DNA of 33,133 nt from IMG/VR virus record IMGVR_UViG_3300007539_000092, positions 1 through 33,133 of that record; one strand, written 5' to 3'. Below the pieces are notes generated by a model. The model did not search any database, was not told the DNA's origin, and worked only from the letters and a program-made list of their open reading frames with translations. The DNA comes from a virus. The number at the start of each line of letters is the position of its first letter. Within the stretch, counting starts at the first letter, position 1. The translations under genes were made by a program, and so were the position numbers. Below, one piece after another: positions 3,379 through 21,803 of this stretch.

Positions 3379-3975
3379 ATGTTAGATGTAATAAATGCGA
3401 CCTACGAGAAAGCTACGCAGATCGCGAGAATCATGCACGAGATATCTAATAGTATGGAGTTAGGAATTTCAGTATCTCGCTTTGACGAACTCTGTGAAAT
3501 TCTAAAGCGTGATATTGTCGAATTTCAGTCGCTTTCAAGTAAGATTCAAAATCCGTACACGAGATTGGCCCTACGGGAAATCGAAATGGAGGAATATAGA
3601 TTATATAGGAATAATGATAAAAAATTCGAGCCTTTCAGCTTAGGCAATCCGGCTACTCAGGGTTCAGCAATCAGTTATCCAATGACAACAACTTGTGTTC
3701 AGCTTATTCAGTGGGCTAGTGAAGCCCGCTTTTGTTTGCAGAGCCCAGAAAAAGACAGGTCGCTGATTTCTAATGATTGCCCGTTCAAGGGTCAGTTCTA
3801 CATCCTGACAGATCGCATCTACACAGAGCATCACAAGTTGATTGGAGTGTGGCGACAACTAAATGATCTAGAACCTGAAGATGAAGTTCAGCCTGAGGAA
3901 AGGATATACAATTTGTATGTTGAGTTCTTAAACGATAAAGAAACATCAGTGGATTTAGTTGGAGAGATCGAGTGA
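3379..3975 (+). CDS. Hypothetical protein
   Basis: A 198-residue soluble protein, start ATG 3379 with AAGGAG upstream. It looks mostly helical, with MLDVINATYEKATQIARIMHEI at the N-terminus broken into amphipathic stretches and an acidic C-terminus (LEPEDEVQPEE). No catalytic motif or membrane segment is visible and I do not recognise the family. Its stop overlaps the GTG start of the next gene, so the two are probably translationally coupled. Confidence 0.65.
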   Translation: MLDVINATYEKATQIARIMHEISNSMELGISVSRFDELCEILKRDIVEFQSLSSKIQNPYTRLALREIEMEEYRLYRNNDKKFEPFSLGNPATQGSAISYPMTTTCVQLIQWASEARFCLQSPEKDRSLISNDCPFKGQFYILTDRIYTEHHKLIGVWRQLNDLEPEDEVQPEERIYNLYVEFLNDKETSVDLVGEIE

Positions 3976-4241
3976 AAGGACTAGCACTATTTCTTGCATC
4001 CATCTGGGGCGATGCCACAACGGACCAACAGAGATGCCAAGCGGAAGCTGACTTCATGGCGAAGCATCGATTTTACTCGCATGTAGGTCCGACCATTGGT
4101 AGATTCGAAGGTGTCGGATGGGGTAGATGTGAGAAGCCATCGACTTGCAGACCTGATCGAAGCAAAGGCTACCGGGTCACAGGCGATGCTTTTGCAAAAA
4201 CTAAAGATGGTGTGACCATACGTGTCACAAGCTGGAGGTAA
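3972..4241 (+). CDS. Small planctomycete-type protein (GRFEGVGWG motif)
   Basis: An 89-residue protein starting at GTG 3972, overlapping the previous stop (GTGA). It has a short hydrophobic start (LALFLASIWG), then QAEADFMAKH, HVGPTIGRFEGVGWG, a Cys pair in CEKPSTCRP, and a C-terminus ending GVTIRVTSWR. The pattern of His-Val-Gly, G-R-F-E-G-V-G-W, spaced cysteines, Gly-Asp-Ala and a closing R-V-x-x-W-R recalls a family of small proteins I associate with Rhodopirellula-like planctomycetes. Function is unknown. Its presence is the main hint to the host, and it may be host-derived. Confidence 0.6.
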   Translation: MKGLALFLASIWGDATTDQQRCQAEADFMAKHRFYSHVGPTIGRFEGVGWGRCEKPSTCRPDRSKGYRVTGDAFAKTKDGVTIRVTSWR

Positions 4242-4246
4242 GGGAG

Positions 4247-5119
4247 ATGTATACATTTGGGAGCTTATTCGCAGGGATCGGAGGAATTGACCTCGGGTTC
4301 GAGCGAGCAGGATTAAAGTGCAAATGGCAAGTGGAGATAGATGATTATGCAACTCAAGTTCTTGAGAAAAACTGGCCGAATGTTGCCCGCTGGCGTGACG
4401 TTAAGACGTTTCCCCCTCAAGTCGAAAAAAAGTGGGATGTCGATATTATTGCAGGAGGATTCCCATGTCAGGACATCAGCACAGCCGGAAGAGGAGAAGG
4501 ACTCCAAGGAGAAAGAAGCGGATTGTTCTATGAAATCATTCGCTTGGCTCGACAACTCAAACCCAGAGCAATCGTGTTGGAGAACGTGGCAGCGTTGCTT
4601 GCTAGAGGAATGGGAGATGTACTCGGAGAGTTGGCCAAGGTCGGGTATGACTCAGAATGGCACTGCATATCTGCTGCCTCCGTTGGTGCGCCGCATGTCA
4701 GGGACAGGGTGTTCATCATTGCAGTATTGGGCAACGCCAACTGCTCACCTATCCAAAGAAGCGGGTTATCCAGCGGAATACAAAAGAAATACCCCAACAT
4801 TAACTGCTACAGTTTTGGCCGAAGAAAACAAATATTGGCCGACTCCTACGGCGAGCGACAACCGGGACAGAGGTTGCATGGAGGACGAGTCAGTAAAGAG
4901 GAGAATCAAAGAAGGAAAGCAAATATCACTTTCTCAGGCCGTGAAAGAAAAGAGAACCACTGGTACATTGAACCCGATGTGGGTCGAGTGGCTAATGGGG
5001 TTCCCAGAAGGATGGACCGACTTAAATGCTTAGGCAATGCAGTCGTGCCACAAGTTGCGCAAGTAGTTGGGAATATATTGATCGAAAGGTTAAAAGAACA
5101 TGAAAAGACCTGCGCTTAA
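4247..5119 (+). CDS. dcm: DNA (cytosine-5-)-methyltransferase
   Basis: This 290-residue enzyme transfers a methyl group from S-adenosylmethionine to C5 of cytosine in a short DNA target, probably protecting phage DNA from host restriction. The ordered motifs are present: I, FAGIGGIDLGFERAG (residues 8-22); IV with catalytic Cys74 in GGFPCQDIS; VI, ENV (112-114); VIII, GAPHVRDRVFI (148-157); and X, LGNAVVPQVA (262-271). The region from about 160 to 250 is the variable target-recognition part and is short. GGGAG precedes ATG 4247. No restriction enzyme gene is adjacent, so it is an orphan methylase. A 230-codon frame in the +1 phase overlaps it almost completely (separate entry). Confidence 0.93.
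   Translation: MYTFGSLFAGIGGIDLGFERAGLKCKWQVEIDDYATQVLEKNWPNVARWRDVKTFPPQVEKKWDVDIIAGGFPCQDISTAGRGEGLQGERSGLFYEIIRLARQLKPRAIVLENVAALLARGMGDVLGELAKVGYDSEWHCISAASVGAPHVRDRVFIIAVLGNANCSPIQRSGLSSGIQKKYPNINCYSFGRRKQILADSYGERQPGQRLHGGRVSKEENQRRKANITFSGRERKENHWYIEPDVGRVANGVPRRMDRLKCLGNAVVPQVAQVVGNILIERLKEHEKTCA
4341..5033 (+). CDS. Overprinted +1 frame of the methyltransferase gene (PTPTA/EWLMGFP family)
   Basis: A 230-codon open frame lies wholly inside dcm in the +1 phase. It carries QEDSHVRTSA, WRTWQ, SWPRSGMTQNGTAY, LPPLVRRMSGT, WATPTA, WPTPTASDN and NPMWVEWLMGFPEGW, which match a protein type often annotated separately in phages. Each hallmark is the +1 reading of a conserved methylase element: EDSHVRTSA of GGFPCQDIS, LPPLVRRMSGT of VGAPHVRDR, WPTPTASD of LADSYGER, and EWLMGFPEGW of the EPDVGRVANGVPRRMD region. 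It may be a genuine overlapping gene or a recurrent shadow of conserved methylase codons. No start with a strong ribosome site is evident (4341 and 4530 are ATG options). Confidence 0.35.
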   Translation: MIMQLKFLRKTGRMLPAGVTLRRFPLKSKKSGMSILLQEDSHVRTSAQPEEEKDSKEKEADCSMKSFAWLDNSNPEQSCWRTWQRCLLEEWEMYSESWPRSGMTQNGTAYLLPPLVRRMSGTGCSSLQYWATPTAHLSKEAGYPAEYKRNTPTLTATVLAEENKYWPTPTASDNRDRGCMEDESVKRRIKEGKQISLSQAVKEKRTTGTLNPMWVEWLMGFPEGWTDLNA

Positions 5120-5336
5120 TTGTCCCGAAGCATATTACATCGAGTATCTGTATCACAGCGGATATGGGTGCTGGCGAATTGCGGAAATCGTAGGTCGATC
5201 TCGAAGCTACATGGAAAGGTCGCTTAGGGCCTGTCCTACTTCGCCTCGATTAGCGATGTTCGTTGGAAGGTTATCAAACGGTATACGACCTAAGCACAAG
5301 CTAGAGCCAGGATGGCATGTCGCCACTAAGTCGTGA
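5100..5336 (+). CDS. Small HTH-like protein
   Basis: A 78-residue protein whose start overlaps the end of the methylase by 20 bases. Residues about 18-45 (GYGCWRIAEIVGRSRSYMER) have helix-turn-helix character: a helix, a Gly-containing turn, then a helix with Arg and Ser. It could be a small DNA-binding regulator, but there is no clear family match and the ribosome site is weak. Its end overlaps the next gene. Confidence 0.5.
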   Translation: MKRPALNCPEAYYIEYLYHSGYGCWRIAEIVGRSRSYMERSLRACPTSPRLAMFVGRLSNGIRPKHKLEPGWHVATKS

Positions 5337-5625
5337 ATTTTTGTTGTCTCGTGGCAAATGCTGTAACTTCGGATGTCGAAACTGCCCTTGGAGATCATCA
5401 GTGAACACTGTCGAACTTGACCTGAGTACAACCATCTTGCAGGGAAAAGACGAATGGTGTGACGATCTTAGCGGGAAGTGGAGACCTATCCCATCTTCTA
5501 TGTTTGGAAAGCTTGCCAAAGACGTTCTTCCTCGATGTGCAAACCTTCGAGGATATGATGCCAGACTCTCTAACGCAGTGCATCCTTCTCGGTGGCCCGC
5601 TGTCTACGGGATGACCAAGCCCTGA
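5317..5625 (+). CDS. DUF5522-like Cys-rich protein
   Basis: A 102-residue protein starting at ATG 5317, 20 bases inside the previous gene. Residues about 11-25, LSRGKCCNFGCRNCPW, closely match the RGxCCxxGCRxCPY signature of the small DUF5522 family, whose cysteines probably bind metal or an Fe-S cluster. The rest (DEWCDDLSGKW, LSNAVHPSRWPAVYG) is unlike that family and ends in a basic stretch. Function is unknown. It is the last gene before the packaging genes. Confidence 0.55.
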   Translation: MSPLSREFLLSRGKCCNFGCRNCPWRSSVNTVELDLSTTILQGKDEWCDDLSGKWRPIPSSMFGKLAKDVLPRCANLRGYDARLSNAVHPSRWPAVYGMTKP

Positions 5626-18112: not shown

Positions 18113-18387
18113 TGCTCGATGGATACATACCTACCGATAGCTCTGGTCTCGAAGGCAGAATCGGGTACACCTCGACGGGTGGAATCCCTGCGAGGAGTGG
18201 ACTTGTTGCAGGAAAAGCTGATGATGTCAATTATTATCAGGTGGCAGACGATGGAACTCTTGTAGACACCGGATCAGATTTTACGGTCTACAACCCTTTT
18301 TCTCTTCCTGTTTCGGCATCTGTTTATGTGCTGTGTAAAAAAGTAGATGGTGTCTGGATCGTAGATGCCGAGGACTGTTCTTCATGA
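18112..18387 (+). CDS. Small tail-region protein
   Basis: A 91-residue protein coupled to both neighbours (TAATG before, ATGA after). It opens with DGYIPTDSSGLEGRIGYTS and is neutral to acidic, probably a small beta fold, with two cysteines (near 79 and 88) close to the C-terminus. No family recognised. Between tail genes, it may be a minor tail component or a chaperone for the following large protein. Confidence 0.6.
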   Translation: MLDGYIPTDSSGLEGRIGYTSTGGIPARSGLVAGKADDVNYYQVADDGTLVDTGSDFTVYNPFSLPVSASVYVLCKKVDGVWIVDAEDCSS

Positions 18388-21300
18388 CAATTTTGCGATC
18401 TCCCGGATGTAACTGCTCGTGTGAATGTCTGCTAATTGAAGAAACAGACTACAACACCAGCATCACAGCAGACACAGAACATGAGATTCCGCATACGATC
18501 CCGATCAATTGCGCAGTCGATCTGAGCAATCTTCTGCCAGAAAAATACTTCGAAGATGACACAAACATCTTCAAAGTACACATAAAAGACTCTAGCGGGA
18601 CGACCACACACAAGACGCTGACTTATCAGTCAGTTCGTGACACAACTGCTCTTGATAAAGGTAGTGATGAAGATGTCTTTCATCCCCGTGCCTATGATGT
18701 AGCAGGTTCGGACCTTTATCTCGATCCCGGTTATTCTCGAAAAATCTACAAGCGTTACGTCAAGCTAAACGACGAAGATTATGACTTTCAGTCATTCATA
18801 CAACATAAAAACCTAGCAGTTGGGGAGAAATACTTCAGGATTAAGTCTGTGTCTGCTGGTACATACGACGATAGCGAGGGTATAGCTACATCTCTAAAAG
18901 GTAGCTTCGGAAGCACATCAGCAGAGACACAGTGCGAAGATGAGCAAACGATCAGACAGAGGTGGGCTTTGCAGAAAAAGCGATACGCTTTTCCTGACGA
19001 CTCGACAAGCCAAGTTCTGAAAACGATTCGGTGGGACAGAACGGATCAGTGTGACAACCAAGTAGAAACCTTCGTCAGAATTGACTATAGCGGAGGGGCT
19101 ACAGAGTCGAGTCAGGGATTTTGGCCGAATGGAACTCAGGTAAAGTCAGCTTCGTTTGCCATAACGCTCACAGCCAATGAAGAGGCAGACGCTAGGCTAA
19201 GGGGAGAAAAAGCTCTGACATGCAGTCGAGAAACGGGAGTGATATCTAACACTGCCAAAGTTTTTGCTATACCGACTGCATCAGAGACAGGCGATGGGTA
19301 TTTCGAACTAGAAACTAAACGAGTTTTAGGAGAGGAGGGCGGCAGCACAGATGTTCGTGTGTACCGTACCGGCGGAAACAGCACAGCAGTTGATGTCGTT
19401 GTAGCTAACGGCAACTCAGATGTTACATTGAACTTCGCAGCAGGTGATGTCTACAAAGATTTCACAATTTCGCATGACTCTCATAATGGCAGCACATTTA
19501 CTGCTGGAATGGTTCCTAGTAACGATCTGATAAGGGACTTTCAGCAAAGACCTATAAACCTTGTCTTTCGCAAAAATACATTCGAGTATGGTCATGCTGA
19601 CAGTTACCCGAGAGCGATTAAGAACGGAGGCGGCAGCGAATATTGGGATCAGATGATTGCCTCGGAGCGAGATACTTGGGCGAACAGTTCCGTAAAAGTT
19701 TTTGTAGAGTCTAATGTCGATACAACATTGAAAGAGTACAAGCTTTTTGAGATTAAGCACGAGGCTAGTTGTGCGTTAGCTGTAGACAATGCAGACTGCC
19801 CTGAGTACGAAAGATGCGATGTCATTCCTGAGTATCATGAGCAGCAATTTGAAATCAGCCATGACTTCGGTTTAGCAAGCCAGTTCATGCCTGCAAGTTC
19901 TTATAGCATCAATGAAGGGTGTGGTTCTGAGTTCGGGTATTGGAATGATCCCCTGCCACTTCAAACACTAGGAAGGTCAGGAGAGGACGCAGATTATTTT
20001 GGTCAGACTGGGCTTTGGAACTTAGCTTTCAATATACTTGAGCTAGACATAAGGACAGCAGAGCGTACTGTTAATTGCTACGACGATGCGTATTGGGATG
20101 CTCAAGAGACATCGATCAACATTACACTGAGTTGCGGTACGTTTGTAAGTTCAACAGATTTTTCACAAATGCCGAGGGCTTGTGCTGCCTTTGGTACTAT
20201 TGACTACTGTTTTACTTATACATGCGGTGATGCTTACACAAACGGCACTGAGGATGGCGTAGCTTACCCAGTAGGCGACCTCCCTGACTACAATGCTCTG
20301 TGGACGGGCAAGTACATTACCACATGCCATGATCTTCACGAGTGCCAAACTCCCGATTACAGCACCAATGCAGGCATACATCAGGTCAAGACTAAAGCTG
20401 TCGCAATCAAAGCATCCGAAAGCAGCGGCACACCTTTTGATGAGCCGAGTTTCGGCAATCCTTCAAGAGCAGGACATCGGCAAGTCCTTGCTGACCTTGT
20501 TAACAATTACTGGCAAACCTATTGGCAGCACGATGGGACATCTTGGGGATATGTCGGACAAGGCAAAGTGCATCAGGTATTCACATCTGACAGTGTGGCA
20601 ACAGTAAAAGCAAACATCGACTTTCTACAGTCCGGTGGTGCGGACTATTGGTTTGAGTACACACATGACACAGACGCAACCAATGACGGTTTCTATCGTG
20701 TTCGATATCCGCAGACAATGACAGGTCCATTCACCTCTGCTGACGATGGCAGTGGCAATGTCTTTGCGAGCGTCTCGGAGGATGTTGGCATCTATGCTGA
20801 CCTAGACGTTTCTTACTTCCAAAGCTGGCTAAATCAGCCTGCCGGAACTAATCTCATAGGTTTTAGCGGAGCAGGAATTAGTCCTCAGTCTGGATACACG
20901 GTTGTTGATGGATCACTCAGCGCATCATTTGAAGGTTCTTTCAAGATCAGCGAGATCGACTACTACGCAGATTACGAATTGCCGTTAAGAGGTGCTGTAG
21001 ACGGTTCCGTTTTAGATATCGGTGAAACAATAAGAATTGACGGGTATTGGCCGCATAGCGACTATGTGAGTGATCCTCCTGTTGGTTACTGGGAAGAAGT
21101 TTCATTTACCGAAGGTGAAGGCACAGTTGCATGGCCGGACGAAGTTTACTTCTCCGATTGCAGACCAACTGTTACATCCGATATGACGCTTACTGTAGAC
21201 CCTTCTTTCCCCTCTGTACCGTCAGGTCAGTCTCGAAAGTTTGTGGACGATACGAATCAACCTTCACGCATACCGGGAACATGCGATGGAGAAACAGGGG

Positions 21301-21803
21301 GCTTGTCGGCAGTCTGTTGCGATGGAGATCCAGCAGGTAGCGAAACAATCTCTTGGCAGTATTGGGACTATGATTCGCTTTCGGACTGGAATGGGCAATG
21401 GACCGGCGATGGCGTAGGTAAAAAGATATCACAGGTTAGCTTCTACGATACGGGTCCGATTTCCAGCAACGCTTTTATCGGTTATCAGCTTGGGATAGGT
21501 TCGCTAGAACTTAAATCTGCTTCTTACGAGTTTCCTATCAAATGGGGGGACTGTTGGACTGAGCAGGATCAGAGAACAGAATCGTTCGACGGCTCTACGG
21601 ATGTAGTTACCGGGCCAGACAAGATATACCCATTTAGAGGAATGAACGCAGTAGGAGATCCACACTTTGAACAATTAGCCGGGACAGCAGACACAGATCC
21701 ATACTCACTAATGTTAGATATGCACGTTGATGCAAATGTCATCAGTAAGTCCAACATCACAATTACAGCACAAGCATACGCAACGCAATGGCAAAAGCAT
21801 TAA
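18384..21803 (+). CDS. Large tail / receptor-binding protein with Calx-beta-like segment
   Basis: A 1139-residue protein, the largest in the window, probably exposed at the tail tip and involved in host recognition. It opens with a Cys cluster (CNCSCEC, residues 9-15). Residues about 305-370 (FELETKRVLGEEGGSTDVRV, then YRTGGNSTAVDVVV and FAAGDVYKDFTI) resemble a Calx-beta calcium-binding repeat, with the glutamate and the R-T-G-G turn in place. Many further cysteines (for example CDGETGGLSAVCCDG) and aromatic residues suggest disulphide or metal-stabilised domains. No lysozyme or glycosidase motif is recognised. The start ATGA overlaps the preceding stop, and the end overlaps the next gene by 16 bases. 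Confidence 0.65.
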   Translation: MTILRSPGCNCSCECLLIEETDYNTSITADTEHEIPHTIPINCAVDLSNLLPEKYFEDDTNIFKVHIKDSSGTTTHKTLTYQSVRDTTALDKGSDEDVFHPRAYDVAGSDLYLDPGYSRKIYKRYVKLNDEDYDFQSFIQHKNLAVGEKYFRIKSVSAGTYDDSEGIATSLKGSFGSTSAETQCEDEQTIRQRWALQKKRYAFPDDSTSQVLKTIRWDRTDQCDNQVETFVRIDYSGGATESSQGFWPNGTQVKSASFAITLTANEEADARLRGEKALTCSRETGVISNTAKVFAIPTASETGDGYFELETKRVLGEEGGSTDVRVYRTGGNSTAVDVVVANGNSDVTLNFAAGDVYKDFTISHDSHNGSTFTAGMVPSNDLIRDFQQRPINLVFRKNTFEYGHADSYPRAIKNGGGSEYWDQMIASERDTWANSSVKVFVESNVDTTLKEYKLFEIKHEASCALAVDNADCPEYERCDVIPEYHEQQFEISHDFGLASQFMPASSYSINEGCGSEFGYWNDPLPLQTLGRSGEDADYFGQTGLWNLAFNILELDIRTAERTVNCYDDAYWDAQETSINITLSCGTFVSSTDFSQMPRACAAFGTIDYCFTYTCGDAYTNGTEDGVAYPVGDLPDYNALWTGKYITTCHDLHECQTPDYSTNAGIHQVKTKAVAIKASESSGTPFDEPSFGNPSRAGHRQVLADLVNNYWQTYWQHDGTSWGYVGQGKVHQVFTSDSVATVKANIDFLQSGGADYWFEYTHDTDATNDGFYRVRYPQTMTGPFTSADDGSGNVFASVSEDVGIYADLDVSYFQSWLNQPAGTNLIGFSGAGISPQSGYTVVDGSLSASFEGSFKISEIDYYADYELPLRGAVDGSVLDIGETIRIDGYWPHSDYVSDPPVGYWEEVSFTEGEGTVAWPDEVYFSDCRPTVTSDMTLTVDPSFPSVPSGQSRKFVDDTNQPSRIPGTCDGETGGLSAVCCDGDPAGSETISWQYWDYDSLSDWNGQWTGDGVGKKISQVSFYDTGPISSNAFIGYQLGIGSLELKSASYEFPIKWGDCWTEQDQRTESFDGSTDVVTGPDKIYPFRGMNAVGDPHFEQLAGTADTDPYSLMLDMHVDANVISKSNITITAQAYATQWQKH

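Follow-up and report, generated by a model that had tools for sequence, protein, structure and literature searches.

Two reading frames nested on the same strand of a phage genome very probably specify a single C5-cytosine methylase divided into two subunits, in which the product of the +1 frame (beta) brings target recognition and conserved motif IX to the catalytic product of frame 0 (alpha). The window, i.e. the whole stretch of DNA analyzed in this work, is a virus record of 33,133 bases, and the alpha/beta pair is located in it just upstream of the terminase genes. The beta orf (4341-5033, + strand, 230 amino acids) lies wholly within the methylase orf alpha (4247-5119, + strand, 290 amino acids), as the first-pass annotation had proposed for a +1 orf inside a cytosine methylase; alpha matches PF00145 with E = 6.5e-49. 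Of the two explanations offered there, overprinting under dual selection or an annotation artefact, the former holds and the latter does not, the annotation trouble being real as a naming problem. We also consider it likely, with less assurance than the split itself, that the pair represents a phage-wide family of split methylases whose specificity resides in a combinatorial cassette of swappable modules placed in the +1 frame of the catalytic gene, each exchange rewriting a needed protein together with a tolerated linker.

In the proposed mechanism alpha would fold as the catalytic large domain, to which motifs I-VIII and the helix of motif X belong, and a long flexible linker would stand in place of the small domain of a normal enzyme. 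Beta would be translated separately and supply the target-recognition region, built of one or more exchangeable modules, while its motif IX would pack the small and the large domain together. We infer the expression of beta, the formation of a heterodimer that would bind DNA via beta and methylate it via alpha, and a biological role in the phage, which may be to shield phage DNA from restriction by the host or to mark that DNA.

Organization of the nested reading frames

Motifs I (LFAGIGG, 4265-4285), IV (GGFPCQDIS with the catalytic Cys, 4454-4480), VI (VLENV, 4574-4588) and VIII (HVRDRVFII, 4694-4720) have been mapped on the + strand in alpha, and motif X (CLGNAVVPQV, 5027-5056) has been placed by motif mapping and the AF2 model; motif IX is missing from this frame. 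P73 and C74 of motif IV are invariant in 97 alphas. Motifs VIII and X are separated by a linker (4742-5026). On the same strand, beta comprises an N-terminal region lying over alpha motifs IV-VIII (VRTSA...SWRTWQ...SETWPRSGMTxNGxAYxLPPL, 4440-4715), module 1 (WATPTAHLSKEAGYPAEYKRNTPTLTATVLAEENKY, 4728-4835), module 2 (WPTPTASDNRDRGCMEDESVKRRIKEGKQISLSQAV..., 4836-4967) and motif IX (LNPMWVEWLMGFPEGW, 4968-5015). The codon-for-codon correspondence noticed at first reading between strings of the two frames was reproduced: EDSHVRTSA lies over motif IV GGFPCQDIST (nt 4455-4481), WPRSGMT (4632-4652) and LPPLVR (4674-4691) fall between motifs VI and VIII, WPTPTASD covers LADSYGERQ (4836-4859) and LNPMWVEWLMGFPEGW covers IEPDVGRVANGVPRRMD (4968-5015).

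The start of beta is uncertain. The ATG at 4347-4349 (+ strand), with GGAG (4333-4336) 10 nt before it and a Shine-Dalgarno energy of -6.4 kcal/mol, is preferred over that at 4341, as ATG 4347 is retained in related loci and ATG 4341 is ACG in three of these; the support is only suggestive because the ATG 4347 site also falls in conserved alpha codons. Across loci, Shine-Dalgarno strength failed to distinguish beta from the third frame, which is counted against the split-methylase reading. The start of beta follows that of alpha by 4 nt in one clade (GTGAATG type; L462:972-976, L012:2296-2300), and there alpha and beta would use one common ribosome binding site.

Two further orfs of the window were recorded. 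A small orf with a match to DUF5522 (5317-5622; 3.7e-7) adjoins the methylase just before the terminase small subunit, and an orf of 1139 amino acids in the structural gene region (18384-21803) has no PHROG match at 0.001.

Dual coding in the +1 frame

Loci were gathered by a search with beta and, separately, by an alpha-only search. For each locus the alpha protein was kept fixed, its synonymous codons were permuted 100 times and the +1 translation was scored against a profile made from the betas of other loci. The median alpha-alpha amino acid identity was about 40%, and synonymous sites should therefore be saturated. The +1 frame of the window scored 265.9 against a shuffle mean of 84.9 and a maximum of 124.0 (100 reshuffles); it contains no stop codon, the 100 shuffles having 8.8 on average and never none. 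All 108 beta-found loci scored above all of their 100 shuffles (median 257 versus 92 bits), with zero stops against 5.8-8.8 expected, and when the roles were reversed, beta being held constant and alpha scored, 108/108 loci again exceeded all shuffles. Since loci found with beta could be biased, the test was repeated on alpha-only loci absent from the first set; 66/66 were above all shuffles, which brings the total to 174/174, compared with 0/6 for canonical Dcm controls. Reshuffling took the place of a fixed 40-bit cut-off for beta in the alpha-found loci, as shuffled alphas exceed 40 bits too. Stop depletion was seen in the +1 frame only. Conservation scores of the other frames were raised as well, because double coding fixes most bases, and the frame-specific evidence is limited to stop depletion and substitution classes.

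Substitutions in independent pairs of related loci were sorted by their effect in each frame. In the overlap NN/NS for beta was 0.45 (95% CI 0.38-0.53) and SN/SS was 0.38, whereas NN/NS reached 0.93 (0.81-1.07) in the part of alpha that precedes beta and 0.99 in canonical Dcm; these classes are simple counts without correction for multiple hits, and the contrasts with controls weigh more than the absolute values. Purifying selection acts on both frames, in agreement with the dual selection offered at first reading as one of two explanations, the +1 value lying well apart from the 0.93-0.99 of the controls.

The +1 frame is thus real dual coding. That its conservation should be an artefact, a mere shadow of the codon constraint of the methylase, is extremely improbable. 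Similarity to beta is in part such a shadow, shuffled alphas keeping about 85-92 bits against the beta profile, yet the real sequences lie above every shuffle in each of the 174 loci, and neither the absence of stops in the beta-found set nor the departure of NN/NS from the control value of about 1 agrees with it. This explanation, which the first-pass annotation had itself set against its claim, failed in every locus tested.

Distribution of constraint along the overlap

The alpha-dominated stretch ends at motif VIII. In 42 pairs NS/SS for alpha was 0.13 before motif VIII and 0.70 (CI 0.55-0.94) after it, NN/NS for beta was 0.67 (CI 0.59-0.75) before and 0.42 after, and NS/SN flipped at this motif from 0.37 to 1.87. 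Given this split of constraint, frame 0 hands the main coding role to frame +1 at motif VIII and resumes it at motif X.

Such an order would also fit a single chain, since the frame under the strongest constraint changes at VIII and frame 0 is used once more for motif X. Programmed frameshifting, with a +1 shift after motif VIII and a shift back before motif X, would give one long polypeptide and no separate beta. We regard this as very unlikely: it needs two opposite shifts per protein, and it would leave the beta frame upstream of motif VIII untranslated, yet that frame is open there in 192/192 loci, where 18 would be expected, and it is subject to the constraint given above. Moreover, the split-type relatives stop alpha after motif VIII, and their overlapping beta orf begins before that stop.

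Under the two-subunit reading the persistence of the overlap finds an explanation, strong constraint on one frame coinciding with relative freedom in the other. Beta is probably ancestral in its C-terminal part, because this part is sited where a canonical gene encodes the small domain, and the alpha linker would be the overprinted product. Over motifs IV-VIII alpha may be ancestral and the N-terminal region of beta overprinted; thus each protein would have overprinted the other.

Alpha as a probable catalytic subunit without motif IX

The PF00145 match of alpha covers only profile positions 2-195 of 324, and a full-length catalytic domain joined to a small domain in one chain was not found, as alpha matches this family partially and beta does not match it. 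When a profile of 97 alphas was aligned with the solved structure of HhaI, residues 7-178 (motifs I-VIII) were aligned and motif X (300-318) weakly so, and HhaI residues 179-299, the small domain, had no counterpart in this alignment. A pattern search for in-frame motif IX gave 0/66 in the new alpha loci. The AF2 model of alpha is confident at residues 1-165 and 261-290 (the motif X helix), with pLDDT of 40-59 for most of residues 171-260; Foldseek matched the model best with HhaI and HaeIII, along about 165 columns. The linker between motifs VIII and X is accordingly predicted by the model to be disordered, and it is nearly free of constraint. A comparison within 16 bacterial genomes showed PF00145 matches that reach about position 320 in canonical genes and stop near 165 in the alphas.

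The beta family and its motif IX

Beta of the window matched no Pfam family and matched PHROG 1008 ('DNA methyltransferase') at 3e-28, as did all of the 97 betas. This is the whole phage protein type recognized at first reading; PHROG 1008 is the beta family itself, and its name is misleading because beta has no catalytic motifs. A PF00145 match is absent from 96/97 betas, the sole beta with catalytic-motif sequence being that of L014, acquired via a frame change. In L052, L087, L014 and L323 a single frame change in the overlap has exchanged the alpha and beta halves of the two orfs, by either assembly error or natural mutation. The family phrog_1008 was present in 16/16 of the bacterial genomes compared above, which were chosen for carrying it, and in 0/14 control genomes.

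The C-terminal motif of beta, LNPxWVEWLMGFPxGWT, is nearly invariant in 97 sequences. The beta profile aligned with motif IX of 34 canonical methylases (hhalign p = 0.004, with 0/200 column-shuffled decoys as high), a set of six canonical sequences having been too weak. The match places motif IX in beta; it is short and statistically modest, and this is counted against the split reading. Betas of the split type, which reach through motif X, align with canonical motifs IX-X (p = 3e-4, 0/200 decoys) and are homologous to beta of the window (E = 1e-18). An AF2 model of beta alone (92 relatives) was poor, with pLDDT of 58.7, and beta matched no solved structure, both of which are counted against the split reading; a Foldseek search with this model found nothing, an outcome that we do not treat as evidence.

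Several other arrangements were observed among relatives. In L006, L002 and L407-L426, an actinobacteriophage-type split form, alpha ends after motif VIII and beta runs through motifs IX and X. L365 (2836-4627) has tandem betas, one nested in alpha and the second downstream (3719-4627), overlapping only the alpha end and covering a decayed remnant that resembles motif X, which shows that a beta can be maintained with most of its length outside an alpha. L310 has, directly upstream of its main pair, another pair of nested frames (1875-2828) that is arranged alike and is more divergent.

Dual coding by itself is silent on function, and beta, poorly modelled and without a Pfam match, might be a genuine product of overprinting that serves an unrelated function, e.g. 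as an anti-restriction protein or a regulator, accompanying an alpha that is a complete methylase alone. We think this unlikely, as alpha has neither motif IX nor a folded small domain, beta carries motif IX, beta was present in every new locus tested from the alpha-only searches, and M.EcoHK31I provides a precedent for a split enzyme (PMC3404938). Beta is most likely the target-recognition subunit and not a separate 'phage methyltransferase'.

The module cassette of beta

Between the N-terminal region and motif IX, betas contain 0-7 units of about 30-42 amino acids that start with [WLF]PTPxAxD, their boundaries being pattern-based. Beta of the window has two such modules. The first belongs to a recurring type with 22 copies; the second is of the commonest type, with 49 copies in divergent loci, invariably the last before motif IX. 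Units 65-83% identical were found in loci whose catalytic domains are merely 32-37% identical.

In 44 independent pairs with catalytic domains 80-99.9% identical, the median nucleotide identity was 88.2% over IV-VIII, 39.7% over VIII-IX (gaps counted) and 82.1% over IX-X, and in 42/44 pairs the VIII-IX middle was at least 10 points under both flanks. This analysis replaces a count of architectures (2211 different versus 24 same) that was rejected as inflated by non-independent pairs. L038 and L109 are 95% identical through motif VIII and in the upstream flank and have no unit in common; L139 and L156 differ by one inserted unit, and L094 and L096 by the last unit. The variation between motifs VIII and IX looks like an exchange of recognition units. 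The description of the middle of beta as a cassette of recurring modules is new in this analysis, and we infer that the modules would determine target specificity.

Annotation and significance of the family

In databases beta is called 'DNA methyltransferase', or one of the frames is missed. In Stenotrophomonas phage SOVA965 (L461:1186-1686) the GenBank entry 'DNA-cytosine methyltransferase' (Dcm) is a fragment of beta, and the true catalytic orf (984-1709) is unannotated. Alpha alone is annotated in Salmonella phage S9-5, the annotation in Paenibacillus phage Diva reads 'g49 internal gene', and in Bloom both frames are annotated as methyltransferases. Among culturable phages, Diva and Lacticaseibacillus phage R9.1 carry the pair. 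These cases are a warning that gene callers retain one frame and lose the other.

The proposed split would give a family that is named 'DNA methyltransferase' and has no catalytic motifs a clear identity as a subunit whose function can be tested, and the pair is a long, widespread same-strand gene overlap with selection seen on both frames. If the modules are recognition units, near-identical natural pairs differing only in modules could reveal the module-to-target code, and phage methylomes would be predictable from sequence. Searches of the literature, which reached only a minority of subscription papers, turned up no publication on the phage family and are not proof that none exists.

Comparison with known systems

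The window shares with M.EcoHK31I (YGGCCR) a layout of motifs I-VIII and X in the large subunit, from which motif IX is absent, and of motif IX in a second orf encoding a smaller predicted polypeptide, the comparison covering the published motif layout. The gene for the small subunit of M.EcoHK31I presumably also lies inside the large-subunit gene in another frame. The large subunit of M.EcoHK31I contains motifs I-VIII and X, and motif IX is found in the smaller polypeptide (PMC3404938). The family described here differs in occurring in phages and bacterial genomes and in having a variable module cassette in beta. A target-recognition domain has been predicted in the large subunit of M.EcoHK31I (PMC3404938), which is counted against placing recognition in beta; our assignment of recognition to beta follows from an alpha linker that is predicted to be unfolded and is nearly free of constraint.

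M.AquI (CYCGRG) consists of two polypeptides, the break between them falling in the variable region that follows motif VIII, and its small subunit contains motifs IX-X (PMC3404938). The pair in the window is unlike it in this respect, its motif X being located in alpha. The split-type phage relatives L006 and L407-L426, with motifs IX and X together in beta, resemble M.AquI.

In Bacillus phage methylases the target-recognition domains are situated between motifs VIII and IX. The multispecific C5 methylases of Bacillus phages carry arrayed target-recognition domains in one polypeptide and protect against many restriction systems (PMC12707154). Several exchangeable units of about 40 amino acids between motifs VIII and IX are found here as well, but the multispecific enzymes are single polypeptides read in a single frame, whereas here the units are placed in the +1 frame, in what would be a separate subunit, and the modules recur across distant methylases.
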